Origin: Diplonema papillatum
Taxonomy: Eukaryota; Euglenozoa; Diplonemea; Diplonemida; Diplonemidae
Length of the DNA: 64,000 bases
Reading direction: 5' to 3'
Assembly (NCBI GenBank): GCA_030068145.1
Contig: JAPJBO010000288.1
Span: forward strand, 1 to 64,000
In this document: positions 22,334-60,110 of the stretch, piece after piece
How positions within the stretch are numbered: the first letter of the stretch is position 1
Layout: the number at the start of each line of letters is the position of its first letter
Notes under the pieces: generated by a model
Database searches by the model: none
Seen by the model: the letters and a program-made list of their open reading frames with translations, nothing else
What the model was told of the DNA's origin: nothing
Program-made: the position numbers and the translations under genes

Positions 22334-24157
22334 TCACCGCGACATACCCGTGCCATACATGGTGCCAACCAAACTGCACATGCGCCGGGACATCAGGACA
22401 GCCCCAAGCAACGACTTCTCTATTAGCGAGGAGCCATGGAACCAACCCCGGGTAAACGGGTCAGCCTTTTGGATCTCAGTCGAGACCCAAACCGGCTCGA
22501 GCTGCAACGACCCTGCCGCCACAAGATCAAAAAGCAAGCAGAGGATCTCGTTGGCCAGGTAGTTCTTGCTGTGGCCCTTTCGCAAAGCGAAAACCACCGC
22601 CTGGTTGTCCACCATGAGGCGGAATTTCTTACCGGGCATCTCGTCAGCAGCTAACCATACCGCCTGCAACGCCGCAAGCAGCTCCTTGATGAAGATGTGC
22701 TCCCTGGGCGGTAAGAACACATCCTGAATCACCCGTCGGGGGGTGGTCTCGAGCAGGACAGCCCACTCTGCATCCGAAGCGTCGGACCAGCCGATCACGG
22801 ACTGTAAATCGGGCGACCTCGCACACCATTCGTTTGTGCGGAGCGAGGCAAGAGCACGCCGCACGTCTTCCACCGTCGAAAAGGGGACGTCCAACGGGGA
22901 GTCCCAACCGCGCTCGCCGGATCCGACCTGGGACGCGAGGCGGCGAACAAACGACAGTGCTGAGCGCATGTAGCACAGAGGACGACCGGTGGTGAAACAA
23001 AACCACACAAATGAGCCGAAAACCTTGAAAAAGGTCCGGGGCGTCGTGCCCCCGGAGAGCACGGCTCGGAGGTCATCGGCTTCGAGCAGCTTCAGCACCC
23101 AAGATGGCGACGATCGAAACCTCGGTGGGTCCGCCGCAAGGTCAAACTCCAGCCCGAGGGCCTCGAAACGCTGCATCGGAACCCCGAAAGTCTCGTCCGC
23201 GGTGTTCAATTCCACTCGAGCGACTTCGCAACGCTCGAGGAGCGCAGCAAAACGCCCAGTGGCTTCTTGTTTCGAGGCCCCGACCGCAAAAAAGTTGTCC
23301 ACCCAGCAGACGCCGTCTTCTTCGGGGAGGAGTACGAGAGATGAGCGCTGGGCTATGCACGGGGCCCAGTTCCAGCCCATGCACATCACCTCCAGAGTGC
23401 AGCGCGTGTATGCGCCTCTCCGCGCGGCGAGGTTCGCCCCGAAGTACTTCCTTATTGCAGCTCCCAAAGGGAACTGGTAGAAGTAACTGACGGCATCAGC
23501 TTCGACCACATACGAAGCCTGCAGGAAACGTGCGATCACGTCCCGCACGTCCGGTAGGAACATCGCGGGCGGCTTCTGCATCAGCGCGTTCAGCTTCCGA
23601 CCGTCACACACGAGGCGCAAACCACCGGACTTCTTCGGCACCGTGAACGCGGGAAGCACGACGCTCTGCCGGGACGGCGACGTGTCCATCACTCCAAACT
23701 CCCTCAACTGGTCGAGGTGTCCGAGCATCCCACGGGATATCCCCCGAGATAAACCGCGCTCAGACTCCAAACACTCCAACGCACCCGGTCTCAGCGCCGC
23801 CTTGAACGCGTCCTCGGAGACGATGGTGTCGATGACGCCGTGTAGCAGCCCCCGTGTGTCCAGGGAACGGAGTGCGTCCACATCGACCCGGGAACACGAG
23901 ATCCTCGCAAGGCTCCCCTCCTGCCTCTCAGAGGGAGGTCCGACTTTCCCCCCGGCGACTCGCACGCAAAGGGAGCCGCTGTACGGGAAATCGACATCGG
24001 GGGCGTCGTCAGAGTCGAAAGAAGGGGGGTCGTAGCACAGCGGAAAATCGGGAAATTTCGGGCGACGGGGCGGAGGTGGCCGGAGGATCGACGGGATGGC
24101 CGGAGGATCGATGGTGGCCGGAGGATCGACGGGATAGCAAAGGCTGTGGGACTCCGC
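22334..24157 (-). CDS. Reverse transcriptase-RNase H of the retroelement
   Basis: The frame is open from just after the recombinase TGA. A proline-rich lead (DPPATIDPPAIPS) precedes the domain; the first ATG-type start is not near, so it is probably made by read-through or cleavage. RT blocks in order: LPAFTVPKKSGGLRLVCDGR, motif A VVEADAVSYFYQFPLG, motif B CMGWNWAPCIAQ, motif C VCWVDNFFAV. Motif C has Asp-Asn where most RTs have Asp-Asp. RNase H blocks follow: GWSDASDAEWAVLL (D), FIKELLAALQAVWL (E), LMVDNQAVVFALRKG (D) and IQKADPFTRG (D), so its four acidic residues are present. The frame ends TGMSR-stop. No internal stop or shift is seen, so the copy may be recent. Confidence 0.85.
   Translation of the reverse strand, partial: AESHSLCYPVDPPATIDPPAIPSILRPPPPRRPKFPDFPLCYDPPSFDSDDAPDVDFPYSGSLCVRVAGGKVGPPSERQEGSLARISCSRVDVDALRSLDTRGLLHGVIDTIVSEDAFKAALRPGALECLESERGLSRGISRGMLGHLDQLREFGVMDTSPSRQSVVLPAFTVPKKSGGLRLVCDGRKLNALMQKPPAMFLPDVRDVIARFLQASYVVEADAVSYFYQFPLGAAIRKYFGANLAARRGAYTRCTLEVMCMGWNWAPCIAQRSSLVLLPEEDGVCWVDNFFAVGASKQEATGRFAALLERCEVARVELNTADETFGVPMQRFEALGLEFDLAADPPRFRSSPSWVLKLLEADDLRAVLSGGTTPRTFFKVFGSFVWFCFTTGRPLCYMRSALSFVRRLASQVGSGERGWDSPLDVPFSTVEDVRRALASLRTNEWCARSPDLQSVIGWSDASDAEWAVLLETTPRRVIQDVFLPPREHIFIKELLAALQAVWLAADEMPGKKFRLMVDNQAVVFALRKGHSKNYLANEILCLLFDLVAAGSLQLEPVWVSTEIQKADPFTRGWFHGSSLIEKSLLGAVLMSRRMCSLVGTMYGTGMSR
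24040..24140. repeat. Short tandem repeat between recombinase and RT
   Basis: GGTGGCCGGAGGATCGACGG and variants occur three times. It keeps the RT frame open and codes for the DPPA(T/I) linker. Confidence 0.8.
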
Positions 24158-24982
24158 TCAGAGCTTCCGGGACGCTGCCGCCGTCTCGGCTGCTAAGGCA
24201 ATCTTCCCCGCGGGGAGGTACCTCACCAGAGCCTCGATCGAGCTGTGCCGCGTGACCCTCCGTATCTCCTCCAAGCTGAGGCCCGCGTCGAGCAGTGACG
24301 CAGCCGCCCCCCGCCGCAGAGAGTGGCCCGTCAGACCCTTTCGGACACGCTTCAGCGCAGCCGACATGCGCCTGTACGACGTCGCCAGCAGCCGATCCTG
24401 GGGCGCCTTGCGCCTCAGTTTCTTCTCGAGGATGCTGTCGAGGTGTTCCGGAAGAACTATCCCCGTCGTCACCCCGAGTTTGAACGGGTCGGACTTCGTG
24501 TCCGACCAGTTGATGGCCAGGAAGTCCTTCTGCCGAGTGACATCGCCGGCCTTCAACCCCGTCACGTCGGCCACCCTGGCCGCACCCCTCCAAGCCAACG
24601 CCAGAGCCTGCTTCTGCGGGCGCAGTGCACCCTGCCTCTTGAGCGAGCGCTCGAAATCGCGCAGGGCCTGCGAGTCCAACGGGACCCCTACCCGCTTTTC
24701 CGCCGACTTCACGTTCTGCACGTACTGCAGCGCTGTCGACATCGAGATCCCGGGTATTTCTTTCGAGCCGCGTAGCTTCCGGCTTACCCAGAGGATCGTT
24801 GCTTCCGCTTTCGACAGCTTTTCCCCGGTAGCTGCCTCCCACTCGCCTCTGAACTCCAACATGCGGCGGTGCGTGGACTCCACCCCGCGCCATGTCGAGG
24901 AGGCGAGAGCCCGCGACAGGTGCTTCTCCACATCCAACCGAACCTGCCTGACCTCCCGCTTCGAGAGGGGTTTTTCGACCAT
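24158..24982 (-). CDS. Tyrosine recombinase of the retroelement
   Basis: 274 residues from ATG 24982 (MVEKPLSKREVRQV). The same frame is open further upstream, under the Gag ORF, to 25930, so the true N-terminus could be longer or made by frameshift from Gag. An N-terminal helical core-binding part (about 10-110) leads to a catalytic domain with AWRGAARVADVTGLKAGDV (first Arg), GHSLRRGAA (His-x-x-Arg), RVTRHSS (His) and VRYLP (nucleophilic Tyr near the C-terminus). These are the R-H-R-H-Y residues of the family, which joins DNA circles to the genome without an integrase. The ORF stops at TGA 24158-24160, and the RT continues in the very same frame. Confidence 0.85.
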   Translation of the reverse strand: MVEKPLSKREVRQVRLDVEKHLSRALASSTWRGVESTHRRMLEFRGEWEAATGEKLSKAEATILWVSRKLRGSKEIPGISMSTALQYVQNVKSAEKRVGVPLDSQALRDFERSLKRQGALRPQKQALALAWRGAARVADVTGLKAGDVTRQKDFLAINWSDTKSDPFKLGVTTGIVLPEHLDSILEKKLRRKAPQDRLLATSYRRMSAALKRVRKGLTGHSLRRGAAASLLDAGLSLEEIRRVTRHSSIEALVRYLPAGKIALAAETAAASRKL

Positions 24983-25083
24983 GCGGGGCCGCCCCTTGGG
25001 CGGACCTCCGGACTCCTTGAGTCCCGTGGCCGGCGGGTCCGGACAGCGAAGAGCTGTGTAGGCCAAAGGCGCCCACTTCACCA

Positions 25084-25926
25084 CTAGTGGGCTTTCGCCC
25101 CGCCCCTCTTGCTGTCGCCACCCGGTTTGCGGTGCCTGCGGGGGGGGGTGTGGCGGGTTTGCGCGTTTGAGGGGGCTGGTCGGTTGTGCGTTTGGGGGTG
25201 CTGCGGGGGTTCGTGCGTCTGGGGCGGTCGAAACCGGTGCTTTCGTGCGTGGGCGTGCGCCTTCTCTTCCGCCCGTGCCATGAAGAGGGGCACCTCGTCG
25301 TCTACCGTGAGGGCCCTCTCGAGCACCTCGGCCGACTCCCAGTCCCCCTGGACCACGCCTCTCTGCAGCACCTGCAGGCGCCCCACCGCTCGCTCCGCCA
25401 GCTTCTGGAGGACCTCCTCCGCGTCCTCTAGAGAGGAGCACCGGCCTAGCGACCTGATGATCAGCTCGAGGTCGTCGAGCCGGTTTCGGGCCTCTCGTGC
25501 TTGCGGGGCGAGCCCGCTCCCCCGCTGGGCGGCCGTGAGATCCTTGTAGTGGTCCCTCACATTTAAGGTCGCGAACTCGCGGCCAGGGTCGTCTAGGGCG
25601 TACCACTTCTCGGGGTCCAGGCTCGCCATGCCCCGGGGAAGGAAACCAAAGGGGGTTCCCGTCCTTTCGCTGGACGCTTTGTCCGTCCCCTCGCTGTCGT
25701 CGTCGCTGTCGCAAAGGGCGCGACCTTCCCGCGGATCTGCGGCCACCGCCTGCCGGTCGTTTTTCTCGTCGATCTTGTCGACGAGGCGGCTCAGGAGGGC
25801 CGTCTGCTGCTTTCCCTGTGCTTGCAGGGCCTCCATCTGCTTCTCCAGCAGATGGATTCTGACTGCGGCCTCGCCGCCGACCTCGGCGTCTTGCGACTGG
25901 CCTCGCTTGGCGGCGCCGTCGTCCAC
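25084..25926 (-). CDS. Gag-like ORF1 of the retroelement
   Basis: About 280 residues with no ATG at its upstream limit: a TAA lies just before it in frame, and the first codon in the open frame is GTG or later. The first in-frame ATG is MEALQAQGK, about residue 31. Residues 18-60 form a probable coiled coil (IHLLEKQMEALQAQGKQQ). An acidic stretch (SDDDSEG), a helical middle (FATLNVRDHYKDLTAAQ; LELIIRSLG) and a basic, His/Pro-rich tail ending KPGGDSKRGGAKAH follow. This suits a nucleocapsid-type Gag without a zinc knuckle. Composition favours this frame over the arginine-rich frame that overlaps it. The frame differs from that of the recombinase. Confidence 0.65.
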   Translation of the reverse strand: MDDGAAKRGQSQDAEVGGEAAVRIHLLEKQMEALQAQGKQQTALLSRLVDKIDEKNDRQAVAADPREGRALCDSDDDSEGTDKASSERTGTPFGFLPRGMASLDPEKWYALDDPGREFATLNVRDHYKDLTAAQRGSGLAPQAREARNRLDDLELIIRSLGRCSSLEDAEEVLQKLAERAVGRLQVLQRGVVQGDWESAEVLERALTVDDEVPLFMARAEEKAHAHARKHRFRPPQTHEPPQHPQTHNRPAPSNAQTRHTPPRRHRKPGGDSKRGGAKAH

Positions 25927-25933
25927 GCATTAT

Positions 25934-27979: not shown

Positions 27980-29191
27980 TCAGTTCTTCTTCAAGTCGGA
28001 AAGGGATTGGCCGATTTTGTCTTGGTCAATGAGGCGGTATGTAGAATCCTTCGCGTTGTCAATCGTGGGGTAGTCCGTGTATCCCTCGGCGGTAGGAGCG
28101 TAGAACGTGTCTCGGTTGTACACGGTGAGAGGAGCCCCGGTTCGGATCCTGTCGGGAAGGTCCGGGTTCGAGATGAACCAGCGACCGAATGCGATCAAGT
28201 CGTACGTTCCATTCTCGAGAGCTTGCTTTGCCGTCTTCGGGGTGAACCCGCCCGCGCCCATGAGGACACCCTTCCAGAGTGCCCGGTACGTCTCACCGTT
28301 GACTGTCGGCAAGGCCATGCCTTTGTCCTCCTCCGGCGACGCAGCACTGCTCGGGTCCCAGCGCGGTTCCGACAGGAACAAGTACGCCAGCTTGAACTTG
28401 CTCAACTCTTTCACCAGCGCCGAGTACACTGCAACGGGGTCAGAGTCCGACAGACCGAAGAACTTCATGCTGGTCTTCGTGGTCGGCGAAAGTCGGATCC
28501 CCACACGCTCTGCCCCAATCTCACGGACCACAGCTTCGACCACTTCGAGCGTCAACCTGATTCTGTTCTCGATCGATCCACCGTACTTGTCGGTTCTCTT
28601 GTTCGCGGAGTCCCCGATGAACTGATCCAGCAGGTACCCATGCGCAGCATGCACTTCGACGGCATCAAACCCTGCTGCCACAGCGTTGCGCGCTGCCCTC
28701 TTGTAGTCTTCGATCAACTGCGGGATCATGTCCAAAGGAAGAGGCTTCGGCTGATCGCACTTCTCCATGCCGTTGTAAGTCGGCGTTTCGTCGGAGCAGG
28801 TCACGTCCGAGCTGGAGTACGGCCCCCCACGACCCTTCAGAAGACTGTGCGAGTTCAGGCTCGAATGGTTCACTCTCCCAGTGTGCCACAGCTGCAGCAC
28901 AATTCGACCACTCTTCTTGTGCACCGCCTCGGTGACCTCCTTCCAGCCAGTAACCTGTTCGTCGGTCCAGATACCAGGGGTGCTCTTCGTCCCCACTGCA
29001 TCCGGGTTGATGTTCGTCGCCTCCGTGATCAGCAATCCACCTTCAGATGCACGTTGGGAGTAGTACTCAGCAGCCCACCGGCTCGGGCTCAGGCTGGGTT
29101 CCTCTGCTCGCACTCGCGTCAAGGGGGCGAGCACAATCCGGTGGTTCAGCGACATGCTGCCGACGGTGAGTGGTTCGAAGAGCTTCGACAT
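27980..29191 (-). CDS. Old yellow enzyme family NAD(P)H:flavin oxidoreductase, copy 1
   Basis: 403 residues from MSKLFEPLTVG. FMN-dependent ene-reductases of this family reduce activated C=C bonds and related electrophiles using NAD(P)H. The TIM-barrel landmarks are present in order: LAPLTRVRA (Thr25, flavin contact), QLWHTGR, the substrate pair H181/H184 in EVHAAHGYLLDQF (the HxxH type seen in PETNR and OPR3), YGGSIENR (Tyr203 proton donor region), and the phosphate-binding FGRWFISNPDLP. The C-terminus is DLKKN, with no peroxisomal signal. A longer frame upstream of the ATG crosses the acceptor AG at 29243-29244 and is not counted. Its twin lies 3.5 kb away and differs at about five residues. 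Confidence 0.95.
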   Translation of the reverse strand: MSKLFEPLTVGSMSLNHRIVLAPLTRVRAEEPSLSPSRWAAEYYSQRASEGGLLITEATNINPDAVGTKSTPGIWTDEQVTGWKEVTEAVHKKSGRIVLQLWHTGRVNHSSLNSHSLLKGRGGPYSSSDVTCSDETPTYNGMEKCDQPKPLPLDMIPQLIEDYKRAARNAVAAGFDAVEVHAAHGYLLDQFIGDSANKRTDKYGGSIENRIRLTLEVVEAVVREIGAERVGIRLSPTTKTSMKFFGLSDSDPVAVYSALVKELSKFKLAYLFLSEPRWDPSSAASPEEDKGMALPTVNGETYRALWKGVLMGAGGFTPKTAKQALENGTYDLIAFGRWFISNPDLPDRIRTGAPLTVYNRDTFYAPTAEGYTDYPTIDNAKDSTYRLIDQDKIGQSLSDLKKN

Positions 29192-29530
29192 AGTAACGGT
29201 TGTTCCTCTCTTTGGTGTGTAGTTGGGTCTCCCACGAGAAATCTGTTGTGTGTTTCGTGGCCGTGTGTTTTTGCTGCTTGCTGACTGCATTCATCCGGTG
29301 GATGTCTTGGCTCTGGTAACGATGAAGACCTCCGACCAGACAAGATGGAACTGCAGAAAGCAGGAGACTCTCCTGTCTTTGAACATTGGGGGCTGGTTCG
29401 CCCATGACTTGAGTGTCGCTGCAAAGGTGCGTTCGACCCGCCGCCGTTCAACAATGAGTGCGACTCAAAGCGGTGAGCGTGGTTGCCTGGTTGGCCTGCA
29501 CGCAAATGACCATTAGCCGACCATCGTGAT
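29192..29530. other. 5' flank of OYE copy 1
   Basis: Homology to the flank of copy 2 is near-complete up to AG at 29243-29244, lost for about 50 bp, then resumes at about 80% from CTCTGGTAACGATGAAGA. No separate gene was seen. Confidence 0.6.
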
Positions 29531-31498: not shown

Positions 31499-32710
31499 TC
31501 AGTTTTTTTTCAAGTCGGAAAGGGATTGGCCGATTTTGTCTTGGTCAATGAGGCGGTATGTAGAATCCTTCGCGTTGTCAATCGTGGGGTAGTCCGTGTA
31601 TCCCTCGGCGGAAGGAGCGTAGAACGTGTCTCGGTTGTACACGGTGAGAGGAGCCCCGGTTCGGATCCTGTCGGGAAGGTCCGGGTTCGAGATGAACCAG
31701 CGACCGAATGCGATCAAGTCGTACGTTCCATTCTCGAGAGCTTGCTTTGCCGTCTTCGGGGTGAACCCGCCCGCGCCCATGAGGACACCCTTCCAGAGTG
31801 CCCGGTACGTCTCACCGTTGACTGTCGGCAAGGCCATGCCTTTGTCCTCCTCCGGCGACGCAGCACTGCTCGGGTCCCAGCGCGGTTCCGACAGGAACAA
31901 GTACGCCAGCTTGAACTTGCTCAACTCTTTCACCAGCGCCGAGTACACTGTAACGGGGTCAGAGTCCGACAGACCGAAGAACTTCATGCTGGTCTTCGTG
32001 GTCGGCGAAAGTCGGATCCCCACACGCTCTGCCCCAATCTCACGGACCACAGCTTCGACCACTTCGAGCGTCAACCTGATTCTGTTCTCGATCGATCCAC
32101 CGTACTTGTCGGTTCTCTTGTTCGCGGAGTCCCCGATGAACTGATCCAGCAGGTACCCATGCGCAGCATGCACTTCGACGGCATCAAACCCTGCTGCCAC
32201 AGCGTTGCGCGCTGCCCTCTTGTAGTCTTCGATCAACTGCGGGATCATGTCCAAAGGAAGAGGCTTCGGCTGATCGCACTTCTCCATGCCGTTGTAAGTC
32301 GGCGTTTCGTCGGGGCAGGTCACGTCCGAGCTGGAGTACGGCCCCCCACGACCCTTCAGAAGACTGTGCGAGTTCAGGCTCGAATGGTTCACTCTCCCAG
32401 TGTGCCACAGCTGCAGCACAATCCGACCACCCTTCTTGTGCACCGCCTCGGTGACCTCCTTCCAGCCAGTAACCTGTTCGTCGGTCCAGATACCAGGGGT
32501 GCTCTTCGTCCCCACTGCATCCGGGTTGATGTTCGTCGCCTCCGTGATCAGCAATCCACCTTCAGATGCACGTTGGGAGTAGTACTCAGCAGCCCACCGG
32601 CTCGGGCTCAGGCTGGGTTCCTCTGCTCGCACTCGCGTCAAGGGGGCGAGCACAATCCGGTGGTTCAGCGACATGTTGCCGACGGTGAGTGGCTCGAAGA
32701 GCTTCGACAT
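31499..32710 (-). CDS. Old yellow enzyme family oxidoreductase, copy 2
   Basis: 403 residues, the same protein as copy 1 except N for S at 12, G for S at 94, P for S at about 133, T for A at about 254 and S for T near 372. All flavin and substrate residues listed for copy 1 are kept. Silent sites are also almost all identical to copy 1, whereas the DNA on both sides is clearly diverged. A strong acceptor (ACTCTTTTGCCAG, AG at 32757-32758) lies 47 bases before the ATG. Both copies appear intact and probably expressed. Confidence 0.95.
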   Translation of the reverse strand: MSKLFEPLTVGNMSLNHRIVLAPLTRVRAEEPSLSPSRWAAEYYSQRASEGGLLITEATNINPDAVGTKSTPGIWTDEQVTGWKEVTEAVHKKGGRIVLQLWHTGRVNHSSLNSHSLLKGRGGPYSSSDVTCPDETPTYNGMEKCDQPKPLPLDMIPQLIEDYKRAARNAVAAGFDAVEVHAAHGYLLDQFIGDSANKRTDKYGGSIENRIRLTLEVVEAVVREIGAERVGIRLSPTTKTSMKFFGLSDSDPVTVYSALVKELSKFKLAYLFLSEPRWDPSSAASPEEDKGMALPTVNGETYRALWKGVLMGAGGFTPKTAKQALENGTYDLIAFGRWFISNPDLPDRIRTGAPLTVYNRDTFYAPSAEGYTDYPTIDNAKDSTYRLIDQDKIGQSLSDLKKN

Positions 32711-32756
32711 AGTAACGGTTGTTCCTCGTTTGTGCATGTAGTTTCCCACGAGAAAT

Positions 32757-37528: not shown

Positions 37529-40500
37529 TCACCGCTTCAGCAACGCCGCGCACAGCGTCGCGAAGGGCTGCTCTACCAGGAGCCACAGGAGGCACGATCC
37601 GCTGAAGGACAAGGAACACACCGCCGCCCAGTTCCAGAGGACGTGGTAGTCTGAGTACGTGGTGGGCGCGTGCTGCGAGGCAGCGGCGGCGAAGACGAGC
37701 AGAGGGTGCAGCAGGTAGACACCGAACGCCAGCCTGCCGAGCGGGGCCCACATCGCGTGGGACATGATCTCGCTCAGCAGCCCTCCGTGCCCCCTGGCAA
37801 ACACTATGCTAAGAATGCTGAGCCCGAGCCCCCAGCTGGACAGATACCACAGGTTGTACAGGGCGTAGGCGTCCGGCGACCACTCGCCGGTGTGGGCTTC
37901 GGAGGCACTCTCGCGCTTCCACAGGAAGAACAAGCAGCTTCCCATGAGCATGCCTGCAACCAGGTACATCAGCGTGCGAAAAGCCGTGTTGTTCAGCGAG
38001 CTCCAGGCACAGCAGCGCGCAATCCAATCCCCGTCGCGCACGAGCGGGGCAACAGATCTCTGCAGCTGTACGGCCGGGGTGGCTTCAGGCTCCACGACGG
38101 GTATACTTGTTTGAAGGTGCGCGTAGTTGTCCGGGGCATCCGGTGACTCGGCAGAGCTCCGCAGTGGGTTCGCAGGCTCGATGTACACGTCGTCGTGCCC
38201 CATGCTGCAGACCTCGTCGCTTCCTTTCAGAGGGTCGCTCTTCTCGTCGCTCACCTCTTCGTCCTTCTCGTCTTTCGGCAGCAGCGGCCGCCCATCCGTT
38301 CCATTTTCCTGCTCCAGCGAAACCACCTGCATTTCTTCTGCCCGCAGATCATCTTCCTCGTTCTTGTCTTTCGCGAGGTCGCGCGCCACCAAGCGCTTTA
38401 AGACGAGGGCAGCCCCGACACCGAAGCAGTATGGGGCTATTCGAAGGTACGGCCGAACGTAGGTCTCACTCTCTCTGGTCAGTTTCTCGCTGTAGGACAG
38501 GTACATGCAACTGGCTATCGTGGCGAGGAGAACGACAGCTATGTAACAATCAGCCCACTTCTGGGAAAGCGAGGTGAGCTTCAGGTATGGGAAAAGGGCT
38601 ACGGGCAGCACCATGGAGAAGTGGAAGTCATCACTGACGTACCAAAGCCAACCAAAGCAGTTGCTACCGGGCCAGTGATAGGAGTCGTTGACGAAGAGAA
38701 AGTGCCGCCACCAGTACTTCTCGCACGAGTCGGATGCAGGATTCATTATCAAGCTGTACGAATACCTCCACCACTGCGATCCTGAACCTAAAAGGGGGAA
38801 GATGTAGATCCCTATAAGCATCCCGGCGCCAATCATCGGCACCAGGCGGAGCCACCGTTGTACCCATGCCATCACCGTGGCAAATGCCATGAGCACATTG
38901 CTTTTCAGCGGCCAGGGGTTCTTCGCCACGGTTCTGGTTATCATCAGCGTCCCGACGAAGCCACTGAGCCAGAAGAACGTATCGACAGCCAGCGGTGCAG
39001 TAGCGATGGGGGAGGTGATGGGCGACAGAAGCCGCTCGTCGACATACGAGGGGTTGGTCCATCCAGAGGCAGTCGCGAAGAAGATGTACGTGTGCCCTAC
39101 CACCACCCACATAATGGATATGCTCCGCCAAAAGTCCAGAAACGAGGTATTGTATGAGCCTTTCTGCGTCGTCGTCGCCCGGTGCGCCAGAAGCGCGGCA
39201 GCAGTGGAGCGCGCGTTCCAGTGGCCGACGAAACGATCGAGCCCCTGCAGCACCCGCTTTCCGGTCTGGTTCCGCACGCGCGCGGCGCAGTACCCGAACG
39301 GACCGGCCGTCCCGAGGACCACGAAAACGGCCAGCGAAACGAAGAACCCGATCGCCAGCACAGTCTTGGTGTCCGACCACTCGAATTCCTCCAAACTCTC
39401 ATCCTCGCACACCGCGAAGTACACGAAGCTGGCGTCGAACCCGCCGCCCAGTTCGAGCAGGAAGTCCCGCAAGTCGTGAGAAGAGCACTCGCGGGGTACG
39501 CAGAGCGCCAGCATCCCGCCGACAGTGGACACAGTGCAAGTCTTCGCGCCAAGCGGCAGGAAGCGGCTGCTTTCCGAGCAAGCCGGAGCGTCGCCGGAGT
39601 AGCCGCCGCGCAGCGTGATGCCGCCCGGCGTGAACTGGCGGTACTTCGGGGATCGCGTCCCGGAGGCCATCAGGTACGCCTCGTCGAGGGCAAACGGCCT
39701 GCAATGGCCCGCGTCGCCCGCCGGCGGCTTGCACGTCGCGCAGCTCGACGGGCAGAGGTCCCTGACGCGCATCTCGGGTGCCACCGTGGCAGGGAGATTC
39801 TGGCTGAGCTGCTTCGCTTGCGTTTCGCACCCGACCATCGACAGCAGCGTCGCGCAGTTAGCTGTCACGGGCCCGATCGCGACGGCCGCCTTGTCCGCGC
39901 ACCGGGTGAAGTCCGCGGCGCCGCAGCTTCCGCACGAAGCGGGGCAGAGCTCGTGCACCTTTTTCGACCCCAACACGACGGCGTTGCACCCGAGCGCTGC
40001 AACAGCACCCGGACACGAGAACCCAGCGCTCGACTTCGCGAGGAGACCGTAAGGATCGTCAGCACAAGCATGACGGGCGCGATCGGAAGTATCGTCGGTG
40101 TTGACCGATGACAAGCAATTCCGGCATTTCGATCGGCAAACCATGTTCACGACCATTTCGTCTCCACCGACCGCCGTGGCTCCATCGCAGCCGACGGCTT
40201 TGATCCTCTCGTCGCAAGCTTCGTCGCCCAATACATTCAGGCACACTTCCGTTGGCCACTCCCGAGCTGCCTCATCGCAAGCCTGGCAGGAAACCGGGCA
40301 AAACCGGAGCATCTTCGCTGTCACCACCTCGCGCGGGATCCCTGCCTGAATCGCCCCTCCGACATCCTTCAATGGGCGCGAGCAACTCGCATCGTTGTGA
40401 AGCAGATCTGCGCAGGATGAACCACTGGTACGCAGCCATCCTTGAGCATCGTCTTTGCAGTCTGCGCCCTCAACATGCATCCCGAAGAGCAGGGTCGCAC

Positions 40501-40540
40501 ACAAGACGACGTATCGGTGAGCTGTCATGACGTACGGCAT
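37529..40540 (-). CDS. Acyltransferase-3 membrane protein (NRF-6-like) with cysteine-rich ectodomain
   Basis: 1003 residues. A signal peptide (about 1-25) is followed by four ShKT-like cysteine blocks: about 28-88, 100-142, 159-206 and 214-270, each ending C-x3-C-x2-C (CPVSCQAC, CRSKCRNC, CPASCGSC, CPSSCATC). Residues 280-380 match the NRF N-terminal domain (CRPFALDEAYLMASG; LCVPRECSSHDL). A membrane span at about 392-415 leads to an acyltransferase-3 domain from about 467: FLDFWRSISIMWVVVGHTYIFF holds the typical His483, followed by about ten spans. A charged cytosolic insert of roughly 120 residues (KDKNEEDDLRAEE... to QRSVAPLVRDGD) splits the late spans. NRF-6-type proteins are linked to lipid handling in animals; the substrate here is unknown. 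The ATG at 40540 is followed by a second one at residue 5. Confidence 0.9.
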   Translation of the reverse strand: MPYVMTAHRYVVLCATLLFGMHVEGADCKDDAQGWLRTSGSSCADLLHNDASCSRPLKDVGGAIQAGIPREVVTAKMLRFCPVSCQACDEAAREWPTEVCLNVLGDEACDERIKAVGCDGATAVGGDEMVVNMVCRSKCRNCLSSVNTDDTSDRARHACADDPYGLLAKSSAGFSCPGAVAALGCNAVVLGSKKVHELCPASCGSCGAADFTRCADKAAVAIGPVTANCATLLSMVGCETQAKQLSQNLPATVAPEMRVRDLCPSSCATCKPPAGDAGHCRPFALDEAYLMASGTRSPKYRQFTPGGITLRGGYSGDAPACSESSRFLPLGAKTCTVSTVGGMLALCVPRECSSHDLRDFLLELGGGFDASFVYFAVCEDESLEEFEWSDTKTVLAIGFFVSLAVFVVLGTAGPFGYCAARVRNQTGKRVLQGLDRFVGHWNARSTAAALLAHRATTTQKGSYNTSFLDFWRSISIMWVVVGHTYIFFATASGWTNPSYVDERLLSPITSPIATAPLAVDTFFWLSGFVGTLMITRTVAKNPWPLKSNVLMAFATVMAWVQRWLRLVPMIGAGMLIGIYIFPLLGSGSQWWRYSYSLIMNPASDSCEKYWWRHFLFVNDSYHWPGSNCFGWLWYVSDDFHFSMVLPVALFPYLKLTSLSQKWADCYIAVVLLATIASCMYLSYSEKLTRESETYVRPYLRIAPYCFGVGAALVLKRLVARDLAKDKNEEDDLRAEEMQVVSLEQENGTDGRPLLPKDEKDEEVSDEKSDPLKGSDEVCSMGHDDVYIEPANPLRSSAESPDAPDNYAHLQTSIPVVEPEATPAVQLQRSVAPLVRDGDWIARCCAWSSLNNTAFRTLMYLVAGMLMGSCLFFLWKRESASEAHTGEWSPDAYALYNLWYLSSWGLGLSILSIVFARGHGGLLSEIMSHAMWAPLGRLAFGVYLLHPLLVFAAAASQHAPTTYSDYHVLWNWAAVCSLSFSGSCLLWLLVEQPFATLCAALLKR

Positions 40541-53486: not shown

Positions 53487-56165
53487 TTATTCGAGCTTTG
53501 AGAGGAGAGCTTTAGCTTCGTCCTGTTCGTCGCGCTCGACTTGAGTCTTGGCCGTGAGGGAAGTGCAGGTCTTGAGCCATTTCACCGCTGCGCTTTGCTG
53601 GTTGACTGCCATGTACGTTTGCCCGAGCATTAAGCTGTTGGCAATCATGGACGGATCCAGCTTTTGGGCTCGCAGCAGGTGAGGGATGGCCGCGTCGTAT
53701 GTTGACGTCGGCGGTGTACCGAACAGGGCCTTGGCGGCCTGCCGCATGGCCCAAGAGATGCCGGCTATGTTGTAGTGCCACGCGCCCAGCAGGTGCTGCG
53801 TGGCCGCATCGTCCGGATTGAGCTCCGCCGCCTTGTCCGCCCGCTCTTTGATCACGAACGAGTTCGCCACCTGCTCCTTCGTACCGGACAGCTGCCCGAG
53901 CTTCGACAGCAAGATGGCCTCCCATTTGGGCCCCTCGGCGACCTCCGGGTGCAGCTTGCGGCAGATCCCGGCGGCGCTGATGCCCTCGGCGTACAGCGCT
54001 TTTTTGGCGTCCTTCTCCGCTTCCGGCAGCGCGCCGGCCGCGTCGTAGCACGCCCGCGCGAACCACCACAAAACGGCGGGTTCCGCACCTTCGGCGACGT
54101 GCGGCTTGAGGTGGTTGTGCAGCTCCACGTGCTCGCCGTCGGCGTAGAGGTCGTCGGCGCGCGCCAGCACGTCGGCACCGGCCTGCGCGCCGGTCGGCGG
54201 CAGCACCGAAGGGGGGTGCGCGGGGTTCAACGCTGACGCCCTAGACGGATGCTCGGCGATCGCTGCGGCCGTCATCGGCGGCGTCTCGGCGGCCCGCTGC
54301 TGCTCCTGCTGCTGCTGCTGGTGCAGCGCCTCGAGCTCCTTCGGGTCGGAGAAGTACAAGAAGTACAGCCGGATCTCGCCGACTTGGACCTGCTGCTCGT
54401 CGAACAGCGGCACCCACTTCGTCCCGTTCATCAGCCCGATGCTGCCGAAGGCCACCAGAGCCTGCGGCGACGCCCGCCAGAGCTCGACTTTGGCGTCCCC
54501 CGATATACCCGGGAAGTCGTACGTGACGTTGAACGCTCCGGTCGCCGACGTCTTGGTCTTGAACTTGTACTGGCCGGACACCACGCGGACGTAGAGCGTC
54601 TCCCCGACCAAGTCGTCGTGCAGGCCGTTGATTTGCATGACGTGCACCCTCAGCTTGCTGTCGAGCGCGGTGAGCCAGTCGCTCAGCCCTTCGTTTTTTT
54701 CGGTCCTCCCGAACCCCGGCAGCGCCTTCAGTGCGGCCGACAGGTACCTGCGGACGCTAGTGCCCCAGTCTTCGATTCCCCGCCACCGGCTCGGCGAGTC
54801 CTCGGACGGGTCGAAGTTCGGGATCAGGTCCTTCGCGGGCGGCGTTTCGATGTGGTACCGGTCGCGCATGGTCTCCCTGTTCTTGTGGAACTGCGCCCAC
54901 TCTTCGAAGTGCCGCGCCTCGGCCGGGATCGGCTCGAGAGCCGTCGGCAGCGGCCAGAGGTACTGCTTGACCTTCTCCTTGAACAGCCGGTGCAGCACGC
55001 GCCTCCAGTTCCACACGAACGCCATCGCCGGGTGGAAGTAGCGCTGGCGCAACACGGGGATCTTATAGTACAACGGGAACAACAGGTACGAGCCGACCGC
55101 AGCGCAGAGGAAGCCGATCTTCCAGAGCCAGAAGGGGAGGCCGAAGAAAAAGGCGTACACGGCACCCATGATCAGGAGGTGGTAAAGCAGAGACGTGACG
55201 TCGCGGTCTCTCCACATGACGATGGCTATGCCGGCGTCGATCAGCTCGTTGAAGAAGTCGCACCAGAGGCAGATCACGTAGTACCGCTCGCCTCGGCCCA
55301 TCGGACTCGCCAGCGACGTCGGATGCTCAATCATCTCCTTCAGCTGCGGCATGGTGTCCCGCAGCTTCGCGAGAGGGACAGTGGACCTCGGCGGCAACGG
55401 CCTGTCTATCGACCAATCAAGCTTCTGAGCAAAATGGATCCCTTCGAATGCTATCTTGCGCTTGGTCCAATACAGCAACCACGCGCACACTGCAAACACC
55501 ATCGTGTCCAGCCCGTTCGTTGTGTAGAAGTACAGCAGGAAAAATATGACAAGCTGCGTGGCGGAGGCAAAGGGCTTCTCCCACATGAACCCGTCGATCA
55601 GCCAAAACATGATCACCAGCGCTCGATACGCCACGGATACCAATTTCTTAGCCGACGCAGCGACCTCGAATAAATCTGCTGTGTTTTCCTCGCTCTCGGA
55701 CTCGTGCGGAACGGCGAACAGCTCCGCGGTTGCAGACACGTTGTACATCCACATGACTTTGATGAAGCCGTATTGCTTGACCCTGTGCTTCTCCTTGTGC
55801 CGGAGCGACTCAGGACACACCAGTTCAATCCATCCTTCAAATTCGTTTATGCCGCCGCCGACTTTGATCGTGCAGTCACCGATCGGGTCGTCTTTTTTCG
55901 TAATGTCCTTGTCCATCACCGACAGGCGCACCGTGTCTTTTTCGGCGACTGCATCGAAGACAAACTGCTCGTTCCACTCCGGGTTGCCCGTCTTCCATTG
56001 AATGTCGGTCTGCCGCTCCTGGAGGCTTTCGTTCTTGCTGAAATAGATCTTCACGAATGGGTCTCCTTTCGAATCGGGCAGGTCTCTAGCCTCGATAATC
56101 TTGATGCAGCACTCGCCCTTCTTCGTGTACTTCAGGGCGGGCTTTTTGTTCCTCCTCGCCAGCAT
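53487..56165 (-). CDS. C2-membrane-C2-RMDN fusion protein
   Basis: 892 residues from ATG 56165, chosen because an acceptor (GTGTTTTGTTAAAG) lies about 20 bases upstream; the longer frame upstream is low-complexity. C2A, about 15-140, keeps calcium-loop aspartates (D35, D85, D87, D93: DSKGDPFVKI; SVMDKDITKKDDPIG). Two hydrophobic clusters follow, at about 178-235 and 296-368, with five or six spans. A second C2-like domain, about 504-606 (LRVHVMQINGLHDDLVGETL), has lost most acidic loop residues. A Gln-rich linker (615-625) leads to about 662-892, which matches RMDN/FAM82 TPR proteins: LARADDLYADG, VLWWFARACYDAAG, SFVIKERADKAAELNPDDAA, HLLGAWHYNIAGISWAMRQA, YDAAIPHLLRAQKLDP. RMDN3 (PTPIP51) and C2-membrane proteins (E-Syt, MCTP) act at ER contact sites, so a tether is inferred. 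Confidence 0.85.
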   Translation of the reverse strand: MLARRNKKPALKYTKKGECCIKIIEARDLPDSKGDPFVKIYFSKNESLQERQTDIQWKTGNPEWNEQFVFDAVAEKDTVRLSVMDKDITKKDDPIGDCTIKVGGGINEFEGWIELVCPESLRHKEKHRVKQYGFIKVMWMYNVSATAELFAVPHESESEENTADLFEVAASAKKLVSVAYRALVIMFWLIDGFMWEKPFASATQLVIFFLLYFYTTNGLDTMVFAVCAWLLYWTKRKIAFEGIHFAQKLDWSIDRPLPPRSTVPLAKLRDTMPQLKEMIEHPTSLASPMGRGERYYVICLWCDFFNELIDAGIAIVMWRDRDVTSLLYHLLIMGAVYAFFFGLPFWLWKIGFLCAAVGSYLLFPLYYKIPVLRQRYFHPAMAFVWNWRRVLHRLFKEKVKQYLWPLPTALEPIPAEARHFEEWAQFHKNRETMRDRYHIETPPAKDLIPNFDPSEDSPSRWRGIEDWGTSVRRYLSAALKALPGFGRTEKNEGLSDWLTALDSKLRVHVMQINGLHDDLVGETLYVRVVSGQYKFKTKTSATGAFNVTYDFPGISGDAKVELWRASPQALVAFGSIGLMNGTKWVPLFDEQQVQVGEIRLYFLYFSDPKELEALHQQQQQEQQRAAETPPMTAAAIAEHPSRASALNPAHPPSVLPPTGAQAGADVLARADDLYADGEHVELHNHLKPHVAEGAEPAVLWWFARACYDAAGALPEAEKDAKKALYAEGISAAGICRKLHPEVAEGPKWEAILLSKLGQLSGTKEQVANSFVIKERADKAAELNPDDAATQHLLGAWHYNIAGISWAMRQAAKALFGTPPTSTYDAAIPHLLRAQKLDPSMIANSLMLGQTYMAVNQQSAAVKWLKTCTSLTAKTQVERDEQDEAKALLSKLE

Positions 56166-56185: not shown

Positions 56186-56215
56186 CTTTAACAAAACACG
56201 GGGGTGGGGGTGGAG
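56186..56215 (-). promoter_or_regulatory. Probable splice acceptor of the C2-RMDN gene
   Basis: Minus strand CCTCCACCCCCACCCCCGTG + TTTTGTTAAAG, then AACGTGGGAGG. The pyrimidine tract and AG are 20 bases before the chosen ATG. Confidence 0.45.
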
Positions 56216-58117
56216 GATGGTGCCTCGATAGGCGGCGAAGGGAGCCTGTTTGTGTCGGTGTTTTGCGTCCTTTTGATCTCCATACAAGTAGCACATAATG
56301 AAGCACGGATTTCCCAACCTTGGCCCTTGCATATACACGGTGAACTCCTACAGGAGTTGAGGTTAGAATGCAGAATATCTGCAGCAACGGCCTGCATTAG
56401 TCAATAGGTGACTACCTCTACCGTGTCATGCTTCAAGCAGAGGGAGTCAAAGACGGCGTGGAGTGGAAACTGAGGAATATCGTGTGAGAACCCGCCTTTC
56501 GGGTGGGGATCGCCACGTGTGTTGCACCCGAAAAGCATGGTGTACTTCGCGCCCTGGTTGCCGCGAATTAAACCGAAACCAGCCCTTCGCCCGAATAGCG
56601 GGGTGGCCCTACTTGGAAGGATCCACTTCGGCACTGAAGGTGTATCCCATGGGCGCTAAGTCTATGCAATGCAGAGCCCCCTGTCAATAATGCTGCTTCA
56701 AAAGCCTTGGATCATTTGCGTCCGTGTGCCCGTGTCCGCAGCCGTGACCAAAGCTCCTGACTATCTCTGCAACTCGAGGGGAAAACTACGAAGAGGAAGA
56801 CTGGTTCCGGGCTACCCGGGCTACCGCGGTTTAGCCACATTGCAGAGAAAGCAGCTTCCGTTTTCCTTTCGGCGGCAGCTATACTCGTCTCCAGCGACGC
56901 AAAAGAAGAAGAAGAAGTCGGAGTAAGGATGGGTGTGGTTTAGTGTCGCCCGAGGAGGGGTATCCCGGGCGCCGCCGTTCTCGTTGGACCGTTGGAGAAA
57001 CGCGTTGACGAAAGGAAAGCGGCGAGTGCCTGGTGGTCCTGCCTCACGGCCAGAAGAGCAGAGCCCTGCATCTGACGGTTCTACGATGCACGGCGATGGC
57101 TGACGTAAGTCGGCCAATCGGGTACATGCTGGACAGGCCATGTTAGCCAACGCTTTACACGTCCAAGTGATGTAGACCGCAGTGGACTACAGAAAGGCAC
57201 GCAGGGTTGAAGCAAGCTTGACACCGCGCGAACTGTGATCGAACCTCGACAAGTTCAAAATCCGAAGGCGGATACAACAGATGGTCTAATATATCAACAA
57301 TACTGCGGCACGGAAACCGTTCCAAGTTGTCAAGTGGGAACTGCTTGACGTGATGTCGACATGCTTTCCTGTCATGCGATGGTCGTTGCAGCTATATTCA
57401 CGATACGAGGCCTTGGTTTCCGATGGCGTTTTCGTCAACGGTTGCAATCTTGCGGTCGCCACTCTGCCCGTGTTACCACTTGGTTACCGATGCGCTATGG
57501 TCCGATTACTGCTGCTTGCTTCCGCGTGACTTGGGGCCGGGCGGGGGGGGGGTCAGCATTAGCAACACACCCTCCGACACAGCTTCGACGTGTGGTCGCA
57601 GTGTATCCAGTTACTCAGCACATCAAGAAAATGAAGCCAACACACCAAACGGGCCAGGGCAGACCTCGGACCAGCCACTGCCACGGTAGACCGACGTCTA
57701 ACGACCTCCTTAACATGACCTCTGCGAGGAAATGCATAGTTTAGGAAGAGCTTCGCCTACCAGAAAGAAAGGGCCTGCGCCAAACAAAAAAGAAAGCAAG
57801 GCCACAGGATGGAGAGGGCGGGGTGAAAGCTCTACGACGGGGTGCCAAGCAAATAAATTGCTGGGTTGAGGCCTACTTGGGTTCAGTGCTTCTAGGGACG
57901 GAAGAAAAACGTGTAAACGGAGTTGACTCACAAAGAAACTTGCGAGAAAATGAAGAATTCTTCACGAAAAGGGCCAGGTTTGGAGGGAACAGTTGAGTGT
58001 CGCGAAGCGTCTTTTTCCTCTTTGAGGTTTCTCACGAATATGAGGGGTCGGTCCTTCGAGGGCCTCCGGGTCCCGCGATCGTGAGCAGCATGAACTCCAG
58101 AGATCTAGTCAACTTCT

Positions 58118-58507: not shown

Positions 58508-59788
58508 TCAATACGGCGGATACTCACTTTGCATCATGCTGGGAGGGTAGCTCGTCGGTGTCCCCATCATGTACGGGTCGTGGAGTCCGTCGACCGGGCC
58601 ATAGTACTCCTGCACTTGGGGTGGATACCCCTGGTAGTACCCGGACGAGTAGTATGCAGCTTCGTACGCCGGAGGTTGGAACTCTGAGGGCTCCTGCGGT
58701 CGCATGCCGTGGGGAGGTGGGGGCGGGGCGAGAGCCGTGGTCCCCAGCGACTTCGCGTGCTCGGACGTGCTGGTGGGGGCTGGCTGGTCGGCTGCGTCCT
58801 CGTGGGAAGACGAGCAAGCGGCGCCTTTCGGGGAGCCGTTGTGAGGGTTGCGGCCCCGGGCCTTGTCGCCGGGAGCCGTGCCGTTTTTTTGATTGGGCAG
58901 CGGAGGGGCGCTGGGCGCGGGCGGCTGGCTGTTGGAAGGAACGGGCGGAGGAGGAGCGTAGGGGGCGGCATACGGACCCAAGTTGGGCTGGTTGTGGCTT
59001 CGCCACTGTGCATCAAACGGAGGCGCATGTGGTTGGTGGTGAGGAGGAAGAGGTGCAGCCTGATGAAACACATGGTGACTATGACGTGCATGGTGCTGGT
59101 GCTGATGATGAAACTGATGCTCAAGATCGTGCGGATGGTGGTTATGGTGGTGATGATGGTGCACATGGTGGTGGTGGTAGTGATGGTGCTGCGACGTGTT
59201 GTGGCTGATGTGATGCGGGTTCGGACTCGGCCCTCGAGCCGGGAGAGTCCCATTGGGCGGTAGAGAAGCCTCGCAGTGCGGCTGCGGCCCGTGCGGGGAG
59301 TGTACGGGTAAATGGTTGGAATTGACTGGCGGACGCCTCCCCCCTGGATACTGCCATCTCTGACGATCCAAACCGGGCGGGGGAGGCTGGGTGTAACCTT
59401 GGCTCATCGGGGTCTCGGGATTTCTCTGCACGCACGGGTCTTGGACGGGAGGATACCCTTTGTCGAACGCGCCACGCGGCGCAAAAGATGCCGGAGGCAG
59501 CATTCCCTGCGGAGCCTGCCCGTTTGGAAACATAGGTTCCACCGGACCTGGCGGCGACAGTTCCCTTGGCCGGGATCCTGGACTAACTGATTCCCATTCT
59601 TCCACGTGCCAGTACACGCACCCTCCATTGAACCTGCAGTCCTCTAGCCGGGCGTGCCGGCACCACTTCGGCTTTTTGTTGGTGCTCACTTCACTGACGA
59701 CCGGGCTAACTACGCTTGGGTGGTCGAACTTGCACTTCTCTCCCAGGCGGCATTTACCTTTGTACCAATGCCGACACACGTTTTCCAT
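58508..59788 (-). CDS. CCCH zinc-finger protein with His-rich and Pro-rich regions
   Basis: 426 residues from ATG 59788. The frame extends upstream only through a GTG-initiated part that overlaps an rRNA fragment, so it is not used. Two CCCH fingers sit at the N-terminus: C5-x7-C13-x5-C19-x3-H23 (VCRHWYKGKCRLGEKCKFDH) and C43-x7-C51-x5-C57-x3-H61 (WCRHARLEDCRFNGGCVYWH). Such fingers usually bind single-stranded RNA. The rest is disordered: Pro/Gly-rich, then a His-rich tract of about 50 residues (HHYHHHHVHHHHHH), and a Tyr/Pro-rich end (YYSSGYYQGYPP; PSMMQSEYPPY). In Euglenozoa, where control is largely post-transcriptional, an mRNA-binding regulator is a fair inference. Confidence 0.85.
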   Translation of the reverse strand: MENVCRHWYKGKCRLGEKCKFDHPSVVSPVVSEVSTNKKPKWCRHARLEDCRFNGGCVYWHVEEWESVSPGSRPRELSPPGPVEPMFPNGQAPQGMLPPASFAPRGAFDKGYPPVQDPCVQRNPETPMSQGYTQPPPPGLDRQRWQYPGGRRPPVNSNHLPVHSPHGPQPHCEASLPPNGTLPARGPSPNPHHISHNTSQHHHYHHHHVHHHHHHNHHPHDLEHQFHHQHQHHARHSHHVFHQAAPLPPHHQPHAPPFDAQWRSHNQPNLGPYAAPYAPPPPVPSNSQPPAPSAPPLPNQKNGTAPGDKARGRNPHNGSPKGAACSSSHEDAADQPAPTSTSEHAKSLGTTALAPPPPPHGMRPQEPSEFQPPAYEAAYYSSGYYQGYPPQVQEYYGPVDGLHDPYMMGTPTSYPPSMMQSEYPPY

Positions 59789-60074
59789 AACACGCCCCTT
59801 CCCTCCCCGCTCCCCTGGCCCCGGCCCAGGCGCCGCCCCTCCTTCGCAGTGTACTTCGTCAGAGAGCGGCCGGGAGACCTTTCCTCCTCGCAAGGGGAGG
59901 TGGCGCCGTCTCCTGCGGAACCTTCTCGCGCACGGAATTTCCCCTGGGAGGCCGCAGCAATGCGATGTCACTATTCTTGTGGTCGCTTGACGTGCACAAT
60001 TGATGAGGAGATGGCAGCTGCTGCTTCGTTTCTTAGTCGCCGGGTGGGCCAGCGCTGGAGCGTCCACAACGGCT

Positions 60075-60110
60075 CTGGAATAACCGCAGGGTGCTGGCAC
60101 CAGAACTTGT
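60075..60110 (-). rRNA. SSU rRNA fragment, 530 loop
   Basis: Minus strand ACAAGTTCTGGTGCCAGCAC + CCTGCGGTTATTCCAG. This matches the 530-loop consensus except for two single-base insertions and one A-to-T change. The flanks do not continue the rRNA. Confidence 0.6.

Follow-up and report, generated by a model that had tools for sequence, protein, structure and literature searches.

A single reading frame of Diplonema papillatum joins a C2 domain and a membrane region to an RMDN/PTPIP51-type TPR domain

Does one gene of Diplonema papillatum encode, in a single chain, a C2 domain, a membrane region and the TPR domain of the RMDN/PTPIP51 family, and what would such a protein do? The question is raised by an open reading frame on the minus strand of the 64,000-nucleotide stretch of DNA analysed here (the window).

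Reading frame and gene integrity

The gene and its presumptive 5′ signal are located as follows:

53487..56165, minus strand: coding sequence of the fusion protein, 892 uninterrupted codons, with the ATG at 56165 and the TAA ending at 53487
56186..56220, minus strand: candidate spliced-leader acceptor, predicted from the sequence, a pyrimidine-rich run whose terminal AG lies 20 bases ahead of the ATG

The uninterrupted ORF of the original prediction was recovered with exact coordinates, from ATG to TAA over 892 residues, and its frame is coding-like across the join to the RMDN part. An open run of this length has a chance probability of ~4e-13 at the gene's own base composition, and stops are found in frame upstream of the ATG. 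The pyrimidine stretch and AG ahead of the ATG plausibly mark the site of spliced-leader addition.

We considered whether two neighbouring genes, or an intron, had been mistaken for a single ORF. The mRNAs of this organism are trans-spliced, as stated in the accessible text of PMC10161547, and a C-rich stretch ending in CAG directly precedes the RMDN part. On the other side, there is no stop in 892 codons and the coding bias runs on through the linker. When all six frames were scored in 40-codon segments with the codon preferences of five further long ORFs from the window, the coding frame ranked first in 42 of 43 segments, and the sole losing one (residues 621-660), where one reverse frame scores higher, lies inside the low-complexity linker; GC3 is 0.88-0.95 in the four segments covering residues 601 to 700. 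We regard a split gene as highly improbable.

A 474-codon ORF on the plus strand (54249-55673) lies opposite the fusion gene, whose high GC at third positions probably accounts for it as a shadow frame. Searching NCBIfam gave no match, the whole 64,000-nt window has no Rfam match at the gathering score, and among viral contigs 31 stretches fitted a pattern, none of them a relative.

Domain composition

The protein is divided, from N- to C-terminus, into the following parts:

55836..56114, minus strand: N-terminal C2 domain, residues 18-110 (Pfam, 5.6e-22; synaptotagmin alignment)
55446..55643, minus strand: first hydrophobic block, residues 175-240 (hydropathy), a helix before W195 and then a hairpin
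55071..55274, minus strand: second hydrophobic block, residues 298-365 (hydropathy)
54348..54659, minus strand: probable second, divergent C2-like domain, residues about 503-606 (own-genome profile and low-confidence model)
54186..54347, minus strand: Q/A/P-rich linker, residues 607-660 (sequence)
53538..54173, minus strand: RMD1-3 (RMDN/PTPIP51-type TPR) domain, residues 665-876 (Pfam, 2.6e-19; PDB; paralogue alignment)

The two terminal domains had both been anticipated, the first as a C2 domain of the calcium type and the other as a complete RMDN domain. The N-terminal domain matches PF00168 at 78.4 bits against a curated cut-off of 22, and its residues D31, D35, D85, D87, and D93 align with the acidic loop positions (aspartates) of synaptotagmins, which we take to be the calcium-binding loop positions of C2 domains; synaptotagmins have a longer loop 1. 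The C-terminal domain matches RMD1-3 (PF21033) at 69.8 bits against a curated cut-off of 26.7, covering positions 11-218 of the 235 in the profile. In a PDB sequence search the top match is human RMDN3/PTPIP51 (7cc7, 1.7e-19), and synaptotagmins, matching the first C2 domain, rank after it. Profile searches therefore returned both families above the Pfam curated cut-offs, where the lack of any RMDN or C2 match had been named as the refuting outcome.

A hydropathy scan identified eight windows of ≥1.0, six of them within residues 175-365 and the others at residues 134-152 and 570-588. We read the six hydrophobic stretches as probably four spans and two amphipathic helices, or alternatively as the five or six spans first proposed. 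The region begins with a W-x-x-P motif, which we take to resemble that of the MCTPs. A Pfam search with residues 120-400, filters on and E values up to 10 allowed, yielded no match, PRT_C (PF08372) included, and the membrane part gave only one match (E 1.8) in a PDB sequence search; as the region is without a Pfam match, any kinship to the MCTPs is putative. The possibility that the second hydrophobic block repeats the first was also considered and rejected: their alignment scores 32.0, shuffled sequences average 33.1, and 1063 of 2000 shuffles reach the observed score.

Residues about 503-606, or about 506-604 as more narrowly delimited, are probably a divergent second C2 domain, an assignment less firm than those of the other domains. 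The region of residues 485-625 scores 8.3 bits against a profile built from 34 C2 sequences of the same genome, a value reached by one of 2000 shuffles. A single-sequence model of residues 480-620, of low confidence (pLDDT 47), shows eight strands and has C2 domains as its top-ranked structural matches, in a list from which absence excludes nothing. No C2 family in Pfam matches this region, and the seven matches from a PDB sequence search, all with E 0.021 or worse, include no C2 domain. The predicted second C2-like domain is weakly supported by the own-genome profile and by a model of low confidence, and has no significant Pfam or PDB sequence match. The single-sequence fold of the whole protein is unusable (pLDDT 38.8).

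Two further motifs were looked for. No SMP domain is present among the Pfam matches of the fusion protein at E up to 1. A scan for FFAT motifs gave two best candidates, at residues 164 and 496, each with a poor score of 5.5 on a home-made penalty scale; neither is a clear FFAT motif, and the scan gives no indication that the protein binds VAP in the manner of PTPIP51.

Paralogues of the two halves

Both halves of the fusion protein have separate paralogues in the same genome. Profile searches were run on 271 Mb in 2910 contigs, exon by exon, and report best candidates only, so absences from them are not absolute. RMD1-3 gives four matches at E up to 1, namely the fusion gene and three other loci. 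The closest paralogue (C50) is a stand-alone 226-residue RMDN ORF that is 49% identical to the fusion protein's domain (48.4% over 213 residues) and has the FGTPP core in common with it; identities to the two remaining paralogues are 35% and 27%. One of these is a 444-residue RMDN ORF (C297; L033 4208-5542, plus strand), in which, judged by eye, hydrophobic stretches precede the domain, a plan that we take to be nearer that of human RMDN3 than the fusion protein's is; the other is a 275-residue ORF with RMD1-3 (C163). None of the three contigs is among the 100 listed C2 matches of the genome, a number that is a minimum.

For the C2-membrane half, 20 C2-containing stretches with wide flanks (L009-L028), out of the at least 100 genome C2 matches, were compared, and more paralogues may exist. 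Of the 20, three have a match to the fusion protein (E up to 1), which extends past the C2 domain in L019, on contig C764, alone. In this locus a membrane entry of the type present in the fusion protein comes after a C2 domain: exon 1 aligns with the first hydrophobic block (residues 175-240), with z 6.9 relative to shuffled sequences, none of 500 of which attains the score. Exon 2 holds two comparable hydrophobic stretches, likewise ordered, and its similarity to residues 241-420 is weak (score attained by 24 of 500 shuffles); against residues 491-620, a possible start of the second C2 domain, the similarity lacks significance (70 of 500 shuffles). The assignment of L019 as a paralogue of the C2-membrane half rests on the alignment of exon 1 and on the order of parts. 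No RMD1-3 match is listed for C764. With RMDN loci lacking a listed C2 domain and a C2-membrane paralogue lacking a listed RMD1-3 domain, the fusion gene, within the scope of these searches, joins two families that also occur apart.

We also noticed, at about 300-1120 and 3200-3280 of L019, a short stretch that is repeated in or beside presumed introns and an ORF presumably resembling a non-LTR retroelement endonuclease.

Comparison with known proteins

With RMDN3/PTPIP51 and RMDN1-2 (PF21033) the protein has in common an RMD1-3 TPR domain that is nearly complete. In RMDN3 a single span lies at the N-terminus and there is no C2 domain, whereas the fusion protein carries a C2 domain, a multi-span region, and a second C2-like domain before the RMDN part. 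The likeness to MCTPs lies in a C2 domain combined with a multi-span region. However, in MCTPs the spans are C-terminal and three to four C2 domains precede them, according to the accessible text of PMC6680132, and the fusion protein has one before and one after internal spans, no PRT_C match, and an RMDN tail. In comparison with extended synaptotagmins, including the two-C2 E-Syt of T. brucei, RMDN takes the place of SMP and the order of domains differs. We do not class the protein as an MCTP or an E-Syt, because PRT_C and SMP were both searched for and not found.

The C2 and RMDN parts belong to known families, and the membrane part is assigned to none. The combination of C2 and RMDN was not found in one protein in the literature searched, which is weak evidence, and such fusions may exist elsewhere. 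The accessible text of the CLDP43 study (PMC9032421) contains nothing bearing on the fusion protein.

Proposed function

We propose, with a probability of roughly 0.5, that the product is an MCTP-like ER membrane protein with an RMDN/PTPIP51-type C-terminus that acts as a calcium-responsive contact-site protein, its RMDN end binding or shuttling phospholipid. The tether or lipid-transfer role originally suggested may be soundly deduced from the parts. PTPIP51 is an ER-mitochondria tether, lipid binding in the cavity of its TPR domain is reported, and the domain is capable of phosphatidic acid transfer in vitro (PMC9239997, accessible text). In plant MCTPs the membrane region inserts in the ER and the C2 domains dock to the plasma membrane (PMC6680132, accessible text). 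Four ERMES subunits, Mmm1, Mdm34, Mdm10, and Mdm12, were not retrieved from Diplonema according to the available portion of PMC12699882. Taken together, PTPIP51 tethering and lipid transfer, ER anchoring of MCTPs, and the missing ERMES subunits make an ER-anchored, C2-regulated contact-site protein the best reading. The same portion of PMC12699882 reports that Gem1/MIRO is present, so other tethers may exist, which counts against a contact-site role. Also on this side, C2 domain, RMDN, MCTP, tether, contact site, and microtubule dynamics are all terms that do not occur in the main text published on the subcellular proteome of Paradiplonema (PMC12697944).

For such a contact-site protein, we infer that the hairpins would hold it in the ER and that an even number of spans, with which the six hydrophobic stretches are compatible, would leave all of its soluble domains, RMDN as well as the two C2 domains, facing the cytosol. 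The first C2 domain would dock on an anionic membrane as calcium rises, and the second would dock, or space the chain, independently of calcium. Carried on a linker of ~50 residues, the RMDN domain may take up phospholipid of the phosphatidic acid type and/or contact the partner organelle, which is probably the mitochondrion. Against this, the RMDN domain is not always regarded as a lipid carrier, RMD-1 stemming from microtubule work.

A different role would follow if the hairpins were the main actor, in a protein of the Pex30/MCTP sort that shapes the ER or belongs to lipid-droplet/peroxisome subdomains, with the RMDN TPR serving only as a protein-docking arm. TPR domains often bind proteins, which suits such an arm. 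The succession of a hairpin membrane region and a beta domain also resembles the reticulon homology region plus dysferlin domain of Pex30, whose functional mammalian counterparts are given as MCTP1/2 (PMC12101077, accessible text). However, in contrast to Pex30, the fusion protein has no reticulon or dysferlin match in Pfam, PRT_C is likewise missing, and its RMDN domain fits nearly the whole family profile and not a generic TPR, so that we regard this role as rather unlikely. The hairpins could instead sit in the mitochondrial outer membrane, where PTPIP51/RMDN3 resides (PMC9239997, accessible text), with the C2 domains reaching to the ER or plasma membrane. The hydrophobic stretches ahead of the RMDN domain in L033 would agree with this placement; the multi-span nature of the membrane region and its position after a C2 domain, as in ER-anchored C2 proteins, argue against it and leave it distinctly unlikely. 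The Pfam family name alone points to a microtubule-linked membrane protein whose RMDN part regulates microtubule dynamics; a name is no test, and we give this very little credence.

Within the contact-site reading, a bolder version, which we consider doubtful, is a one-chain, calcium-controlled ER-mitochondrion lipid shuttle replacing the animal pair of VAP plus PTPIP51, in which ER anchor and RMDN carrier would be fused under a C2 switch in a lineage without recognisable ERMES. More generally, for the question of how euglenozoans that lack conventional ERMES link the ER to mitochondria, a C2-type anchor covalently joined to a PTPIP51-type domain would be a ready candidate. The natural fusion also hints that both modules may cooperate elsewhere.

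Other genes in the window

On the minus strand at 22337-25930, adjoining ORFs give a weak reverse transcriptase match of 4.9e-6, just below the cut-off, and a tyrosine-recombinase match of 1.6e-7, and presumably represent a DIRS/Ngaro-type retrotransposon. Two NADH:flavin oxidoreductase genes of the Old Yellow Enzyme type, very alike by eye, lie at 27983-29290 and 31502-32749 (both minus strand; 7.9e-91 and 5.7e-92). They are followed by a 1003-residue ORF (37532-40540, minus strand) with an Acyl_transf_3 domain (9e-14) and an N-terminal part that is cysteine-rich by eye, and, at 58511-60100 on the minus strand, by an ORF that encodes a His-rich stretch along with a zinc finger of the CCCH type.
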